From: a virus
Direction: 5' to 3' (one strand)
Virus record (IMG/VR): IMGVR_UViG_3300006033_000014
Coordinates: 1-34,585 of that record
Length of the DNA stretch: 34,585 nucleotides
The notes beneath the pieces were generated by a model. It made no database searches and was not told the DNA's origin. It saw only the letters and a program-made list of their open reading frames with translations. This document shows, piece by piece, positions 955 through 22,316 of this stretch. A program made the translations under genes and the position numbers. Numbering within the stretch: position 1 is the first letter of the stretch; every line of letters starts with the position of its first letter.

Positions 955-3422
955 TGGCGAAATGGGGAACGTTCAAATGGGGTACAAGCAAATGGGGCGC
1001 CGGCCAAACCCCAGGCCCACAACCTACGTACACCGCGCCGTATGTGTGGGTAATAGAGATAGCCTGGACTGGCAGCTTTAGCGGCGCGAATGAAGCCGAC
1101 AAGGTAACGTCTCTGCGAATTGAACGGGGCAAGGAGTATTTTGTATCGCGCAATGGAGACGGATTAGAGCCGTCAACCCCAGGGCGTGCCTCGTTCACGC
1201 TCGACAATACTGACGGCCGCTATGACCCATACAACACGAGTAGCCCGCTATACCCGTTCGTGGCGTGTGATAAGCAAGTAAGGATTACATTACGCGATGT
1301 AAACAACAGTTTCACGAGTTACCCCGTATTTATGGGGTGGATTAGCGACCTTAGACCCGTGTCAGGCAGTGGCGACGCGGTCAGTGTCGAATGCGTTGAC
1401 GATATGGAAGGTTTATCGCGTCAAGATGCAACCGTTGAGATGAAATTCAACACGAACACGACCGATGCAATTACCGCCGTGTTGGATAACGTGGATTATC
1501 ACAATCGTGATATTACGACCAGTGACAACCCAATAACGCTCTTTAGCGTCGAAGATCAAAACGCTATGGATATACTCAACGAGCTTGCAGAGGGTTCACT
1601 AGGCCAGTTCTTCTGTGACAGGACGGGTAAAATCCGTTACTACTCGCTACGCTACAACTCGCAACCTACGCACGTAATTGATCAGGCCGACGTGTTGAAG
1701 CAATTCACGATTGCGCAACCTTGGGACGAGAAACGCACGCGGGTTACTACGTTTGGAAACAGGTGGATTAGGACTACCGAGCGCGTAGTGTGGGCATCGT
1801 CTGGCATCCTAATTGTGCCAGGGTCATCCTCGATTGACTTTGATATATCGTTCTCAAATCCCACGATTCCCATTACACCCGTTGCAGGTCGTGATTATAG
1901 TGTCGGCATCAGTAACATTGTTGGCGGCGTGGCGGTTCCTGCATTATCGGCACAACTTTCAAACGTTACGCCAAAGTCTTGCACCGTCACAATATCGAAT
2001 GCGGCCACAACCCCACGTGATACCTATCTAAAGGTCAGGGGAAGCGAGTTCCTAACGTCATACCCCGTCAGACAACGGCGCTATGTGCCGGGCGCATCAC
2101 AGTCTGAAATGCAAGAGGTCAGTACCAAAGTCAAGACAACCGTAGAGGACAATAGCGTGCCGGCATCGTTGCGGTCGTCATTCGTGTTGGATAACGCATT
2201 CCTGCAGGACGCGGGTTTTAGCGCGGCGTATGCCTCATTACTGTTAGGGCATCTGCGCTTTGCATCGAAAAACCCAGTCATCACCATGCGCAATTGTGCG
2301 ACACCCGCGCTACAATTCGGGGTAGAGCTTCAAGATTACGTAACATTTACATCCGCGAAAAAGGAAATTGACAACACCTACAGACTCGGTAAGGTGGTGC
2401 ATGAATGGCTATCCCCAACAGGCCAGGATGTACAGACTACGTACCACCTGATAAACGTGTTGCAGTCAACGCAGTCGATTGTAGGCGATGGGGAAATCAT
2501 TATTGAGATCATCGACCCAGACGGCGGAGGCGATGGGGATACACCAGGCGGCGGTAATAATCCGCCACCGCCTACACAACCACCTGACACAGGAGACCCG
2601 ATTGTAAATTGTCCGGCAGATTCCCCCGCCAATGGGCCGCAGTGGATTCCGGAGATGATGAGGAGCGTCCAGAATACGGGAAGCTCTTTCATCCGGGCAC
2701 AAACGTCATTTGTGGCACGCGGCGGGGCAACCCATGCAAACCCGTCAAGGTGGGAAATGGTTTGCAGATTAGAAATTGCATCAGACTCCGGTCTAGGATG
2801 GGTTCCAGGTGGTTTCATCCCAGGCGCTAAAGTGACATTCAACGCGGGCGGCGCTGGTGGGGCAAACTACGAAGCTACATTCGACCTATACGGCGGGCCA
2901 AACCAGTTTAGTGGGCCTATCATCCTGTCAGGGGCGCGGCGCATTACATCCGTGATTTTCGACATTCCTTCAGGCGGCGAAGCGTATACAACCATTGGGG
3001 CACCGCTGGCAATCGTAACCCTAGACCCCAATAACTTTATTGGTACGCCGGTCGGTTTTGAATTTCAGGCACAACGCAAGTTGTACGGCATTCGCGGCAT
3101 TAGCGGGTTTTGGCGATATAACAACGGCGATCTAGGGCCAGAGGGTTACATTCACGACATCCTAAACCAGGACGGTTTGCCGTTACCCTACTCGTCAGAT
3201 CAGATATGGGATGATGACGCGATTCCTCATGCGCCATATGCGGCGAGATATTTCTATGGTTCGATCAATCCAGATGCTAAAATGCGGGCACGGGCAACCT
3301 ATGGAGCCGATGGGTATGACGGTCGAACAGACGGCCTGACGGTTGGGCTATATAACGCTATGCCGATGGGCAACCTACGGGTTACAATCGAATCGTTTAT
3401 GATTTATAACGTGTGCCCATAG
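954..3422 (+). CDS. Tail hub / baseplate-type minor tail protein
   Basis: An 822-aa protein that starts at a TAATG junction with the tape-measure gene, where the distal tail or hub protein normally lies. Residues 1-16 carry three K-W-G units. Residues about 30-510 are beta-rich with early SLRIERGKE and FTLDNTDGRYDP patterns, as seen in hub-like proteins that define measured segments of the tail tip. A glycine/proline linker rich in DGGG and PPPP lies near residues 520-550. A separate C-terminal domain of about 270 residues follows and may bind carbohydrate or the fibre. It probably forms the tail tip and anchors the fibre-like proteins encoded next. The assignment rests on position and general sequence character; no catalytic motif was seen. 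Confidence 0.7.
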   Translation: MAKWGTFKWGTSKWGAGQTPGPQPTYTAPYVWVIEIAWTGSFSGANEADKVTSLRIERGKEYFVSRNGDGLEPSTPGRASFTLDNTDGRYDPYNTSSPLYPFVACDKQVRITLRDVNNSFTSYPVFMGWISDLRPVSGSGDAVSVECVDDMEGLSRQDATVEMKFNTNTTDAITAVLDNVDYHNRDITTSDNPITLFSVEDQNAMDILNELAEGSLGQFFCDRTGKIRYYSLRYNSQPTHVIDQADVLKQFTIAQPWDEKRTRVTTFGNRWIRTTERVVWASSGILIVPGSSSIDFDISFSNPTIPITPVAGRDYSVGISNIVGGVAVPALSAQLSNVTPKSCTVTISNAATTPRDTYLKVRGSEFLTSYPVRQRRYVPGASQSEMQEVSTKVKTTVEDNSVPASLRSSFVLDNAFLQDAGFSAAYASLLLGHLRFASKNPVITMRNCATPALQFGVELQDYVTFTSAKKEIDNTYRLGKVVHEWLSPTGQDVQTTYHLINVLQSTQSIVGDGEIIIEIIDPDGGGDGDTPGGGNNPPPPTQPPDTGDPIVNCPADSPANGPQWIPEMMRSVQNTGSSFIRAQTSFVARGGATHANPSRWEMVCRLEIASDSGLGWVPGGFIPGAKVTFNAGGAGGANYEATFDLYGGPNQFSGPIILSGARRITSVIFDIPSGGEAYTTIGAPLAIVTLDPNNFIGTPVGFEFQAQRKLYGIRGISGFWRYNNGDLGPEGYIHDILNQDGLPLPYSSDQIWDDDAIPHAPYAARYFYGSINPDAKMRARATYGADGYDGRTDGLTVGLYNAMPMGNLRVTIESFMIYNVCP

Positions 3423-4290: not shown

Positions 4291-5729
4291 CATACCGGAA
4301 TAGACAAACCCCAGGGCAAGTAACGCAATTCAATAACGCGGCTGGTGAGGTGTTTCAGGAAGATAGCGGGCTTTATACGTCATTCACGGGCGCGACGGCT
4401 ACGCTTCAGGCGATTCTAACGGCGGCACGCGCTTACACGTTACCAGATCAGGACGGCACACTGGCATTGCTAGAGCGCGAACAGACATTTTCGCAACAGC
4501 AAAACTTCGTCGTTGAAGGCAATATCCCAATACGCGCAGAACGATTGGTTACAACAACCAACGCGATTGCAAGCGCGGGCGTATTCCGGTTGACCAGTAG
4601 CGGCGATATGGTTGACGGGCACGGGCCACAGGTGACCTTGTCAATTCAGGATGACACATTAGACCCTCAAAATATCGCTACGATTGCGGCCACACGCGAC
4701 GGGGCGGATAACACAGGCCGTATGCTATTCTCGGTTTACGTGGCGGGCACGTTTAGCCGTCGCCTTGCAGTAACATCAACGGGCGTGATTGCAGGATTAG
4801 GGTTACTGGCCGCTACACCCGCAGTATCATCTGCGCCGTTACACGCCTACACACGCGACGCAACCGCCAACGCGATTAGCACGGTTCAGGCAATCGACCA
4901 TGACAGCGGTTCTGCTGGCGCGGCTGGCATGGGAGCGCGGCAATCGTGGCTACTGAAATCATCGACCACAAGCCAACAACTTGCAGGCGCGATTGATGTA
5001 GTCTGGACTACGGCCACCCATGCGACCCGTACCGCTAAGATTGATCTATCCGTAACGCTGGCCGCCACAGAGACCAAACGGATGACCATTGCCGACGCGG
5101 TACAGATTGGCGATATTACGGGCGGTAACGTCTCGCAGTTTGACAATGACGGCACCCTAAAGTTTCTGGGCAATGCAACGGTATTCGATGATCTGCGCGT
5201 GGAGCCAAACGCACGCACTACTGGGGCTAATTCACCAACTTTTGAGGTGTATCTAACCAATGGCGCGGGTAGTCGTGGGGTATGGTTGTATTCGTTTGAC
5301 AATGCCGTTGCAGGAAGCGAGAAGGAGCTATTTTTTACAATCCAATTCCCGCACGGTTGGAAGGGGACGGACGTATACCCCCATGTGCATTTCATCCCGG
5401 CGGCCAATGGTACGGCTATGGCGGTTAGATGGGGCTTAGAATATACTTGGGTAGAGCCAGGCGGAACGTTTGGCAACACGTCGATTGTTTATACTGCAAC
5501 CAACGTACAGGGTGATGTAAATCTAGTAGCCAACAAGCACTATATAGCCGCGTTTTCTGGCATCACCCCATCGGCAACGCAGAATGATATATCCTCAATT
5601 GCGATATGCAGGCTATTCCGCGATTCTGCCAACGCTGCCGACACCTACACCAACAAGGCGGGACTTCTGTACGTTGATTGGCATTATGAAATTGATCAGA
5701 TTGGCAGTAAATCGGAATATACTAAGTAA
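4287..5729 (+). CDS. Tail fibre / receptor-binding protein candidate
   Basis: A 480-aa protein starting at an ATGA overlap with the preceding fibre-like gene, with no strong ribosome site of its own, so translational coupling is likely. The N-terminal 75 residues include ARAYTLPDQDGTLALLE and EREQTFSQQQNF, patterns common in phage fibre N-terminal or shaft segments. The middle is threonine/alanine rich with a TLKFLGNATVFDDLRV stretch, after which residues about 310-480 form a distinct C-terminal domain with many aromatic residues (VYPHVHFIP, YVDWHYEI). That C-terminal domain is the best candidate in this genome for contact with the host surface. No enzymatic motif was recognised. Confidence 0.65.
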   Translation: MTYRNRQTPGQVTQFNNAAGEVFQEDSGLYTSFTGATATLQAILTAARAYTLPDQDGTLALLEREQTFSQQQNFVVEGNIPIRAERLVTTTNAIASAGVFRLTSSGDMVDGHGPQVTLSIQDDTLDPQNIATIAATRDGADNTGRMLFSVYVAGTFSRRLAVTSTGVIAGLGLLAATPAVSSAPLHAYTRDATANAISTVQAIDHDSGSAGAAGMGARQSWLLKSSTTSQQLAGAIDVVWTTATHATRTAKIDLSVTLAATETKRMTIADAVQIGDITGGNVSQFDNDGTLKFLGNATVFDDLRVEPNARTTGANSPTFEVYLTNGAGSRGVWLYSFDNAVAGSEKELFFTIQFPHGWKGTDVYPHVHFIPAANGTAMAVRWGLEYTWVEPGGTFGNTSIVYTATNVQGDVNLVANKHYIAAFSGITPSATQNDISSIAICRLFRDSANAADTYTNKAGLLYVDWHYEIDQIGSKSEYTK

Positions 5730-6840: not shown

Positions 6841-6844
6841 TGTA

Positions 6845-6906
6845 TAGTTACAAGATAGTTACAAACACTAAAACCTATTGCAACCCCTAACGATAGGGAG
6901 TATACT
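6845..6906 (+). promoter_or_regulatory. Early promoter P1 with operator-like sequence
   Basis: TTGCAA at 6878-6883 and TATACT at 6901-6906 are 17 bases apart, a near-consensus sigma-70 promoter. TAGTTACAAGAT (6845-6856) is followed by a second TAGTTACAA (6856-6864). Overlapping the -35 box is an imperfect inverted repeat, CTATTG (6875-6880) and CGATAG (6891-6896). The whole arrangement recurs at 7901-7962 with identical spacing, which supports regulation of both promoters by one factor. Confidence 0.8.
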
Positions 6907-6957
6907 GTATACATCGAGCGAGACAAAAGCAGTCAGACAGACAAGGGAGCGGCACAA

Positions 6958-7251
6958 ATGACTACTATCACCATCAACATTGACGATGACGGCATGATCG
7001 GCGGTATGACCGAAAGCGAATTGGAATCAATCGACGTGCCGGCATCTTACGAGAAGTATCTGAATAAAGTTTCCGGATTAGTTCGCGAACGTTTTCCCAA
7101 TGCCCGCATAGAAATAAATATTTGCCCGTGCGATATTGACATTGAGATCAAGGGAGTTGATGATTTTGACTTACGTAGTTCGGTATACAATACCGTGAAT
7201 AATATATCAAATTACATCTATGCAGCTGGACGGTTCTGGGTATATCGCTAA
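6958..7251 (+). CDS. Early protein of unknown function
   Basis: A 97-aa acidic protein, first gene after promoter P1, with a GGGAG ribosome site. The start MTTITINIDDDG and the alternating INICPCDIDIEIKG strand suggest a compact alpha/beta fold. A single C-P-C sequence is present but there is no second cysteine pair, so zinc binding is doubtful. The position at the beginning of the early region suggests a role in host takeover, anti-defence or regulation; this is inference from place only. I do not recognise the family. Confidence 0.7.
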   Translation: MTTITINIDDDGMIGGMTESELESIDVPASYEKYLNKVSGLVRERFPNARIEINICPCDIDIEIKGVDDFDLRSSVYNTVNNISNYIYAAGRFWVYR

Positions 7252-7284
7252 TCACCCTCTCGTTCCGGCGCGAGTAGCCACCGG

Positions 7285-7337
7285 CCCGTATCGCGGTAGA
7301 TGCCGCGACTGATGAGGCTCAGTCAAGCCGAAACGGG
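7285..7337 (+). ncRNA. Hammerhead ribozyme, type III
   Basis: All core elements are present in order. Stem III is 7285-7289 (CCCGU) paired with 7333-7337 (ACGGG). The cleavage site is GUA, between A7290 and 7291. Stem I is 7291-7296 (TCGCGG) paired with 7303-7308 (CCGCGA). The core CTGATGA is at 7309-7315. Stem II is GGCT 7316-7319 with AGCC 7326-7329, and GAA plus A15.1 is at 7330-7333. No core base deviates from the consensus. The RNA would be made in the P1 transcript and would cut between the first two early genes. Hammerheads are known in phages; the regulatory role here is inferred. Confidence 0.92.
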
Positions 7338-7346
7338 AGCGCAACA

Positions 7347-7811
7347 ATGAGAAGTAGATACGTAGTCGTTGAGGATCAGGGCGGTGGATTACAGTTATTC
7401 GTGTTCGACACCGCCAACCGTTGCGTATTCGCACGCGGCTCATATGAGCATACGCCAGGGCTATTGTCGCAGTCATTGACGGCACTGGTGAACGGGTCGG
7501 ATGTAGTCGCCAATTACGCCACCTGGGATACTGAAATCCTAGACGCGGCGGGTGCATGGGAAGACGTGAGGATCGATGATACCGGGTATTACTCGATTGT
7601 CGCAATGGGCATCGAATCGCGTATCCGGTGGGCTTATGCAAACATGGGGCCTGCGTCAATGGCAGAGTTTGGCGTATCGCAGGCACGCATTGACTCGGCT
7701 AAGGCCGCACAACAGTTAGGCCGAATCAAGTCGACGCGCAAGGCCGAGGCAAGCCGCGAGAATGGCAAAAAAGGCTACAGTGGCGCGAAAATCGACCAAT
7801 GCGAAGCGTAA
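7347..7811 (+). CDS. Early protein of unknown function behind the ribozyme
   Basis: A 154-aa protein. Its ribosome site GGGAG (7335-7339) overlaps the 3' strand of hammerhead stem III, 7 bases before the ATG, so ribozyme folding or cleavage may alter access to it. The N-terminal 110 residues look like a mixed alpha/beta domain (YVVVEDQGGGLQLFVFD, then YYSIVAMGIESRIRWA). The C-terminal 45 residues are lysine, arginine and alanine rich, suggesting nucleic-acid contact. No catalytic motif was recognised. It is followed by about 180 bases containing promoter P2. Confidence 0.7.
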   Translation: MRSRYVVVEDQGGGLQLFVFDTANRCVFARGSYEHTPGLLSQSLTALVNGSDVVANYATWDTEILDAAGAWEDVRIDDTGYYSIVAMGIESRIRWAYANMGPASMAEFGVSQARIDSAKAAQQLGRIKSTRKAEASRENGKKGYSGAKIDQCEA

Positions 7812-7900
7812 CGCATAGATACGCGTAAAATCGCGCTACGTGGCTATTTATGGCGTTATACGCGATTGTATGATCATGCGATGATCTAATGGCGTGATGA

Positions 7901-7962
7901 TAGTTACAAGATTATTGCAATGTCTAAAATCTATTGTAACCCCCAACGATAGCGGTTATAAT
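7901..7962 (+). promoter_or_regulatory. Early promoter P2, duplicate of P1 module
   Basis: TTGTAA at 7934-7939 and TATAAT at 7957-7962 are 17 bases apart. TAGTTACAAGAT (7901-7912) sits exactly 30 bases before the CTATTG half-site, as in P1. The 22-base block 7931-7952 differs from its P1 counterpart 6875-6896 at only two positions. A separate short inverted repeat, GATCAT-gcg-ATGATC, lies upstream at 7872-7886. Confidence 0.82.
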
Positions 7963-7992
7963 AGATACATCTTAGAGACAGGGAGCGGCACA

Positions 7993-8319
7993 ATGGATCA
8001 AATCTTACACGCTTACGACGTTACACGCGGCCAACGCGTGGCAATCACCGGAATGATTACCGCCACACATGGCAAGACCTATTGGGCAGTCACTTCCGTC
8101 AGCGGGGATCAATACGGTATCCCCCTGAACGAGACCAACACGCTGATTGATTGGGTTATCGAGCCTGTGCCGTGCGCCCATGATAACCCGCAGGTTGAGG
8201 TTATCGGCGGATTGTCCCGAGACTGCGGAGAGTGGGATGACGTGAGCTATGATATTCTGGTATGCCCAGAGTGTGGCGCGGTGCTAGATCGACCTACTGA
8301 GTACGAAATACCGTTCTAG
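7993..8319 (+). CDS. Small zinc-ribbon-like early protein
   Basis: A 108-aa protein starting at the ATG after GGGAG, about 25 bases downstream of the expected P2 start; longer in-frame readings would begin upstream of the promoter. The C-terminal half has cysteines in PCAHDN, RDCGEWD and a VCPECGAV knuckle near residues 90-97, consistent with a small metal-binding domain. The N-terminal half (VAITGMITATHGKTYWAVTSV) resembles a small beta barrel. Function is unknown. Early expression and likely metal binding suggest a regulatory or host-interaction protein. Confidence 0.72.
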   Translation: MDQILHAYDVTRGQRVAITGMITATHGKTYWAVTSVSGDQYGIPLNETNTLIDWVIEPVPCAHDNPQVEVIGGLSRDCGEWDDVSYDILVCPECGAVLDRPTEYEIPF

Positions 8320-20822: not shown

Positions 20823-20991
20823 CCACCCAAAGCGCGGTAGACCGCCCAAGCAGGGCAGCAAGATGGTGCAGACCGGATTGTGGCTGTACGAAAACCAAAT
20901 CCAGTGGATCAAAGAAGAAGCTGCACGGTTAGGGATAACCGCCAGCGAACTATTACGAATCCTGATCGATAAAGCAATGAAGGATAAATGA
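20806..20991 (+). CDS. Ribbon-helix-helix protein with AT-hook-like N-terminus (ISL3 cargo)
   Basis: A 61-aa protein with GGAGG upstream. Residues 8-15 (PKRGRPPK) resemble an AT-hook, binding the minor groove of AT-rich DNA. Residues 21-58 (VQTGLWLYENQIQWIKEEAA, then GITASELLRILIDKAM) fit a ribbon-helix-helix DNA-binding fold. It is coupled to the transposase by ATGA. Its likely target is the AT-rich palindrome in the element's promoter, giving autoregulation of transposition; this is inference from arrangement. Confidence 0.75.
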   Translation: MLPKNDHPKRGRPPKQGSKMVQTGLWLYENQIQWIKEEAARLGITASELLRILIDKAMKDK

Positions 20992-22316
20992 CCGATCTTC
21001 TCAATCTTCCTTACTGGAACGTTCTGAAAGTTCAGGAAACCGACCTGAACTATGTCATCGATGCTACTTACGAGGTCGAGCCTGCTGGCTGCCCTCACTG
21101 CGGGTTCATGATCCGCTACGGACACGGCACGAAGGAAAAGCTCTTTATGGATACTCCCATCCACGGCAAGCGGGTAGGTATCCGGGCGATTCGCAACCGG
21201 TACAAGTGCCAGAACTGCGGGAAAACCTACATCCAGCCACTCCCCGATATAAACGAAGACCACTTTATGACAAAGCGCCTGGTCAGCTACATCGAACGGG
21301 AGGTTTTCAAGCGCACCTTTACGGCGATGGCTGCTGAAATCGGAGTGGATGAAAAGACAATCCGTAACGTTTTCAATGAGTACGTGGAGCGCGAGGAAAA
21401 GAAGCGGGTTATCCTGGCTCCTTACTGGCTGGGCATCGATGAACTGAAGATCGCCGGTGGGTATCGTGGCGTGTTCAGTAACGTCAAGGATCGCTGCATT
21501 CTCGATCTCATTCCAAACAGGAAGAAGGTGGAGGTGGTGAAGTTCTTCAAGAAGCTGCCTGAAAAGGACCGCGTGCAGCTCGTCTGCATGGATATGTGGA
21601 CGCCTTACAAAGAGATTGTGAATGAGTATCTTCCAAAGGCCCAAGTCGTGGTGGATAAGTTCCACTTCATAAGGATGGCGAGTGATGCACTGGAAGCTGT
21701 TCGGAAGGATGTTCGAGCTGAACTCACTGATCGCCAGCGCCGCCAGCTCATGCACGACCGTTTCATTCTTCTCAGAAGGAAAAGAGACCTGGAAGCGAAA
21801 GATCTGATCTTGTTGGATTCCTGGCTTGGTTCCTTCCCCCTTCTCAAAGAGACTTACGAACGCAAAGAGGAACTGTACGATATTTGGGAACTCAAAGACC
21901 GGAAAGAGGCCGAAAAGCAATATGCCGATTGGCAAACCAAAATCCCCGCTGATGGGCTGTTTGCCTTCCGGCCTCTTTTGACCGCAATGCAGAACTGGCG
22001 GAATGAGATTTTCGCTTATTTCGACCACCAGGCCACCAATGCCTACACCGAATCCCTTAACGGCCTGATGAAGCTGGCTAACCGCATGGGCCGGGGTTAC
22101 TCGTTCGAGGTCATCCGGGCGCGCATTCTGTATGCGCCGGAGAACGCAAAAACCACCACCCTCCGCCGTGGGATTCTCAGAGACCAGCAGGCCTACTACA
22201 TGTTTCCACCCGCAAGGCCACGCCCTGATTACTTCAGCGGTGTGAAGATTTCCACATTGGTGAGTGCAATTCGGAATGATCATTTCCTACCTATTTCCAC
22301 ACGTTATTCCGAATAG
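20988..22316 (+). CDS. tnpA: ISL3-family transposase
   Basis: A 442-aa DDE transposase, full length for the family (about 400-450). The zinc-finger region is Cys35/Cys38 and Cys74/Cys77 (GCPHCG and CQNCGK). A helix-turn-helix with AAEIGVDEKTIRNVFNEY is at 114-131. Catalytic acids are Asp151 in GIDELKI, Asp202 in VCMDMWTPY and Glu355 in NAYTESLNGL. It carries out cut-and-paste movement of the element with 8-bp duplications. The frame is intact, so it may be active. Its stop is 2 bases from the element end. Codon choice (AAG, GAA, CTG, CTC) differs from the surrounding phage genes. Confidence 0.95.
   Translation: MTDLLNLPYWNVLKVQETDLNYVIDATYEVEPAGCPHCGFMIRYGHGTKEKLFMDTPIHGKRVGIRAIRNRYKCQNCGKTYIQPLPDINEDHFMTKRLVSYIEREVFKRTFTAMAAEIGVDEKTIRNVFNEYVEREEKKRVILAPYWLGIDELKIAGGYRGVFSNVKDRCILDLIPNRKKVEVVKFFKKLPEKDRVQLVCMDMWTPYKEIVNEYLPKAQVVVDKFHFIRMASDALEAVRKDVRAELTDRQRRQLMHDRFILLRRKRDLEAKDLILLDSWLGSFPLLKETYERKEELYDIWELKDRKEAEKQYADWQTKIPADGLFAFRPLLTAMQNWRNEIFAYFDHQATNAYTESLNGLMKLANRMGRGYSFEVIRARILYAPENAKTTTLRRGILRDQQAYYMFPPARPRPDYFSGVKISTLVSAIRNDHFLPISTRYSE

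Follow-up and report, generated by a model that had tools for sequence, protein, structure and literature searches.

What is a complete hammerhead ribozyme doing directly in front of a start codon in the early region of a phage genome? The question is raised by positions 7285–7337 of our window, an entire IMG/VR virus record (IMGVR_UViG_3300006033_000014; 34,585 bases) from a tailed phage with genes for terminase, portal, capsid, ERF recombinase and primase. The original prediction, made from the DNA letters alone, described a complete type III hammerhead ribozyme here, with every core base, stems I, II and III of six, four and five pairs, a G-C pair at 10.1/11.1 and a GUA triplet, cut between 7290 and 7291 and situated between the first two early genes, downstream of promoter P1. 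The sequence bears out all core bases and stems, our coordinates agree on the cut and on the type III order of the stems, and the place in the early region, after P1, holds (Table 1); overall, this interpretation of ribozyme, cut site and setting is supported. Going beyond it, we found that stem III shares bases with the Shine-Dalgarno (SD) sequence of gene 2, and that the ribozyme falls among those phage type III hammerheads which have a CAG..A loop II and are located before start codons.

Table 1. Features of the ribozyme and its surroundings in window coordinates, with the evidence for each
Feature	Position	Strand	Basis or remark
Terminator-like hairpin upstream of P1	6802–6834	+	14-pair stem, consensus scan only
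Promoter P1, TTGCAA - 17 - TATACT	6878–6906	+	Consensus scan
Gene 1, 97 aa	6958–7251	+	No family match
Type III hammerhead ribozyme	7285–7337	+	Sequence, flank-shuffle control, leave-one-out model
Stem III, 5' strand CCCGU, putative anti-Shine-Dalgarno role	7285–7289	+	Sequence
Predicted cleavage site, after A17 of the GUA triplet	7290–7291	+	Homology to hammerhead core
Stem I hairpin UCGCGG-uagaug-CCGCGA	7291–7308	+	Sequence
Catalytic core CUGAUGA	7309–7315	+	Sequence
Stem II hairpin GGCU-cagtca-AGCC, loop II of CAG..A type	7316–7329	+	Sequence
Catalytic GAA plus A15.1	7330–7333	+	Sequence
Stem III, 3' strand ACGGG	7333–7337	+	Sequence
Shine-Dalgarno GGGAG of gene 2	7335–7339	+	3/5 bases within stem III
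Gene 2, 154 aa, predicted gated gene	7347–7811	+	No family match
Promoter P2, TTGTAA - 17 - TATAAT, before gene 3 (7993–8319)	7934–7962	+	Consensus scan

Reading in the same direction as the genes, the ribozyme lies 33 bases 3' of gene 1 and 9 bases 5' of the gene 2 ATG. The regions of the two promoters are alike (6844–6915 versus 7900–7971, 79% identical); in the former, the palindrome GTATACTGTATAC spans the -10 box and is possibly an operator. Positions 6901–8000 gave no blastn match in cultured phages, and viral contigs searched with the gene 2 protein gave no relative. Among the matches listed, TerL resembles that of cultured phages weakly (<35% identity), and the capsid protein is closest to that of a Bradyrhizobium phage (36% identity over about half its length). 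The genome also carries an ISL3-family transposase gene (20988–22316), for which the best plasmid matches among those listed have 43–47% identity.

All 15 pairs of the ribozyme are intact, with a possible U-G pair in addition to the six Watson-Crick pairs of stem I, and no core base is altered. Of the features of a type III hammerhead, the site has CUGAUGA followed by GAA, an A15.1-U16.1 pair, an H17 other than G (here A), and a core surrounded by three helices, of which stem III opens to the flanks. By itself the core counts for little, since chance alone produces the loose pattern CTGATGA..GAAA in 19 out of 100 windows after shuffling. When the core and stem II were kept fixed and the flanks shuffled, only 16 of 100,000 sequences equalled the pairing score of the window, and the full pattern of fixed length occurred in 0 of 100 shuffles.

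The search with the Rfam hammerhead type III model proposed in the original prediction succeeded in part: RF00008 matches the site with 29.3 bits (E 1.2e-4 for a 221-base stretch; E 0.019 over the whole window with all 4227 families; E 4.6e-6 for the family within the record), but the gathering score of 48.5 is not reached and at that score the window is not reported. The gathering score is an annotation cut-off rather than a molecular property. At gathering, the scan of nine other phage loci reported their type II hammerheads and none of the type III hammerheads that we parsed there; RF00008 therefore seems to be tuned to other members than the phage type III hammerheads. We built a phage-specific model (R1) from an alignment (A1) of 49 phage type III hammerheads that excludes the window; these sequences align readily. 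Trimming before alignment dropped the window, L119, L114, L222, L306, L196, L198, L283 and one duplicate, and manual selection took out 7 of the remaining 56 sequences, which were near copies or superfluous. In A1, both partners vary in 13 of the 15 pairs, with a pairing of 97.6% and a covariation score of 0.934, figures that are inflated by selection because the parser itself requires pairing; the safeguard is the comparison with shuffled flanks given below. With R1 the window scores 60.5 bits (E 2e-16; no second match up to E 5), which falls within the range of 48–66 bits of the other phage hammerheads. We regard the ribozyme as a secure new addition to the known hammerhead family, and its complete core and homology predict self-cleavage at 7290/7291.

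In the calculated minimum-energy fold a GACUGA/UCAGUC hairpin displaces stem II, and the native fold is 4.3 kcal/mol worse in a calculation that leaves out tertiary contacts; compared with shuffles, the fold stability of the ribozyme stretch is no greater (z −0.81). Loops I and II of the window could form a 3-pair GAU/GUC contact. Among 65 distinct CAG-type loop pairs, however, loop complementarity, counting Watson-Crick pairing only, is not above that of shuffled pairs (17 versus 14.8), and a loop-loop pseudoknot is unsupported by covariation.

For comparison we collected hammerheads from phage loci, counting related phages (e.g. L242, L287, L297) apart. Two targeted scans, one for hammerheads with GGAG and ATG behind them and one of wider scope, selected GGAG after the core, so that SD overlap within them is partly by design, and two samples were blind to the downstream sequence. 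In the first blind sample, 73 of the 91 core matches listed for 80 loci parse as full hammerheads versus 45 of 1820 with shuffled flanks, and the matches listed for 120 loci (L108–L227) comprise 81 type I and 28 type III hammerheads and 26 without parse. Among these listed matches, an SD-preceded ORF start follows within 60 bases in 40/77 type I and 12/26 type III hammerheads (random positions 7–9%; antisense controls 1/76 and 0/28), and SD overlap is seen in 0/28 type III hammerheads. The distance from cut to start is regular for type I, 26 of the 40 listed having the SD-preceded ORF start 22–28 bases after the cut. A scan for the CAG loop, also blind to the downstream sequence, gave 103 distinct matches (70 of type III, 11 of type I and 22 unparsed, among the matches listed). 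Here, of the 67 listed type III hammerheads with sufficient flanking sequence, 65 are followed within 60 bases by the start codon ATG of an ORF that encodes 30 aa or more (random positions 33.9%), and in 57 of these 67 it stands 11–26 bases after GAAA (random positions, 10–26 bases: 10.2%). A recognised SD is present in 30/69 of the listed type III hammerheads of this sample and an SD overlap of at least 2 bases in 6/69, the total being 69 instead of 70 due to a stricter pattern test. With its loop II CAGUCA, the ribozyme of the window is one of the phage type III hammerheads with a CAG..A loop II that abut start codons, among which the use of the SD in stem III is a minority arrangement.

In the window, the first three of the five SD bases of gene 2 sit in the ribozyme helix that the cut would split; the motif GGGAGcg before the ATG is common to genes 1, 2 and 3. 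We found SD overlaps of at least 2 bases at 19 environmental phage loci including the window; ten of them have 4–6 bases, and in seven (L264, L282, L094, L242, L287, L297, L304) the whole SD lies inside a stem III of 8–11 pairs. A CAG..A loop II occurs in 14 of the 19 hammerheads of the SD-overlap loci (window not counted; L243 has two), compared with 6/45 other type III and 0/147 type I hammerheads (Fisher p 5e-6, related loci not collapsed). Of the 18 downstream proteins besides that of the window, 10 were scanned against PHROGs; none had a match, and no common function emerged from them. One of the loci, L242, harbours three type II hammerheads (4777–4843, 5088–5149, 5560–5624) downstream of its SD-overlapping type III one.

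According to the folding calculations, cleavage would make the SD more accessible. The probability that the window SD is unpaired rises from 0.04 in the intact RNA to 0.54 in the 3' product, or from 0.33 to 0.54 when the native fold is enforced. For loci with an overlap of at least 4 bases the calculated mean increases from 0.08 to 0.55 (10/10 raised by >0.1), and for those with 2–3 bases, the window among these nine, from 0.35 to 0.60 (7/9 raised); at an overlap of 0–1 the median change is 0.01 (14/47 raised). For this dependence of the gain on overlap the Mann-Whitney p is 8e-6, with related loci counted apart. The calculated energy of stem III equals that of the pairing between SD and anti-SD in the window (both −6.6 kcal/mol); in L242 the values are −12.3 for stem III versus −8.9 kcal/mol for ribosome pairing.

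We propose that the ribozyme gates a ribosome-binding site, i.e. that its cleavage switches gene 2 on, and we cautiously favour this as the probable reading of the locus. It builds on the sequence, structure and position described above and on the calculated opening of the SD; cleavage, release of the 5' strand and an effect on translation we infer. The early transcript from P1 would span gene 1, the ribozyme and gene 2, and once the polymerase has passed 7337 the RNA could fold into the type III hammerhead and be cut after A7290. In the uncut RNA, stem III (CCCGU/ACGGG) would mask three of the five SD bases, and gene 2 should therefore be translated poorly. The cut would free the strand CCCGUA, the remaining 5-pair duplex being presumably weak enough to dissociate and expose the SD. 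Translation of gene 2 would then use a shorter mRNA that has a 5'-OH end and whose 56-base leader starts with the stem I hairpin; gene 1 would end up on an RNA of its own, terminated by a 2',3'-cyclic phosphate. The complete hammerhead, its leave-one-out score, the SD overlap, the calculated opening, the closeness to the genes and an engineered precedent all support the gate. Against it stand the partial overlap in the window, where the site would already be unpaired with a probability of 0.33 in the enforced native fold, as well as the better competing fold, relatives without the ribozyme and the restriction of the overlap to a minority of hammerheads. More generally, tailed phages may have a subgroup of type III hammerheads of the CAG..A form which builds the open stem from the SD of the next gene and makes that gene translatable by self-cleavage, and at least 19 loci, the window included, would be of this kind; this wider claim we put forward as quite possible, with some reserve.

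The main rival of the gate is plain transcript processing, in which constitutive cuts yield mRNAs of gene length that have defined 5' ends and differ in stability, and the SD overlap is a mere by-product of the ribozyme being packed tightly against the start codon. It agrees with the fact that phage hammerheads precede genes with or without an SD in the stem, most of them without such an overlap, and cutting of long phage transcripts has already been proposed (Perreault et al. 2011, PMC3088659). However, it fails to predict that in seven loci a stem III of 8–11 pairs should extend over the whole SD, when 4–6 pairs are usual and enough; we consider it possible, though on the doubtful side, as the full account of the locus.

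The overlap could also work in the opposite sense, as a translation-sensing off switch: ribosomes bound to the SD would block stem III and thereby cleavage, while ribosome-free transcripts would be cut and degraded, tying the life of the mRNA to its translation. SD binding and stem III are indeed mutually exclusive by sequence, and ribosomes could compete with stem III of the window because it is no stronger than the pairing of SD and anti-SD. In L242, however, stem III outweighs ribosome pairing, and the hammerhead is already fully made when the polymerase has yet to reach the start codon, so that folding and cutting would usually come first; we think an off switch improbable. Still less credible is the view that the element is a relic without activity, or a chance resemblance, which adopts the competing hairpin and has no function. 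The minimum-energy fold, the score under the Rfam gathering cut-off and a patchy distribution would suit it, but not the unchanged core, the 15/15 intact pairs and an R1 score typical of phage hammerheads.

The patchy distribution is evident among relatives of the phage. Out of 302 TerL relatives found we kept 80, of which 47 were scanned with RF00008 and 41 with R1. In the R1 search the ribozyme was absent from all 43 gene-level relatives (41 by TerL and 2, L338 and L339, by ERF; many of them fragments), and with 0/43 positive there is no sign of its conservation in the phage lineage. Two RF00008 matches among the 47 TerL relatives (14.6 and 13.2 bits) were too weak to be taken as real. L338 has a DUF3800-VI RNA motif (3003–3052) upstream of its ERF gene. 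Starting from L264, L087, L266, L094, L287, L242 and L282, we found no cultured phage with an SD-type hammerhead; a search for such hammerheads in named prophage hosts gave 3 genome-contig matches, none of which parses as a hammerhead. The R1 scores in Streptomyces phage R4 and in Caelum were no more than 17.2 and 15.8 bits. These phages and Tefunt contain type II hammerheads (9 in R4, L430; 5 in Caelum, L431; 8 in Tefunt, L432), all 22 above the Rfam gathering score and all on the minus strand, the strand of the small-gene operons. Three of those in R4 coincide with the tiny ORFs gp60.1, gp67.1 and gp75.1, which may be misannotations.

Compared with known systems, the ribozyme shares the core, the order of stems, the open stem III and the predicted cut after H17 with Rfam RF00008 type III; it differs in its score below gathering (29.3 of 48.5 bits), in H17 being A, and in sharing stem III with an SD. 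Hammerheads of phages and prophages near genes and start codons are already in print (Perreault et al. 2011, PMC3088659), for example HHphage, 13 bases before the helicase gene of the haloviruses HF1/HF2, with a mapped mRNA 5' end no more than 3 bases from the cut. The window ribozyme resembles the hammerheads of that report in its phage setting, its place between genes of one operon and its nearness to a start codon. The main text of PMC3088659, which calls the biological functions of phage hammerheads unproven, makes no mention of Shine-Dalgarno sequences or ribosome binding and does not describe the overlap. The overlap of the catalytic fold and the SD also suggests that widespread cutting may divide the early operons of phages into gene-sized mRNAs.

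Our literature search (bioRxiv and most subscription papers lie outside its coverage) showed no natural hammerhead with an SD in its stem; the natural overlap of hammerhead and SD therefore appears to be new, with an unproven function, and opens a direct, cheap test of one function of a phage hammerhead. Natural catalytic RNAs that decide gene expression are the c-di-GMP group I intron of Clostridioides difficile and glmS, which act by self-splicing or cofactor-driven cleavage, are controlled by ligands and are much larger RNAs than the hammerhead of the window. Both are named in a study of engineered ribozymes (PMC5052635), and so far it is from engineering that the design of the gate is known. 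In that study, an engineered twister ribozyme held the SD in one of its stems, and expression was 5-fold to about 100-fold higher with the active than with the inactive ribozyme; an earlier engineered ribozyme switch with the SD in a stem is cited there (Ogawa and Maeda 2008). As proposed for the window, these switches pair anti-SD and SD as a ribozyme stem so that the cut frees the SD; they are man-made, whereas the ribozyme of the window is natural and has no known ligand. If our reading is true, the phage hammerhead is a natural counterpart of this engineer-built switch design.
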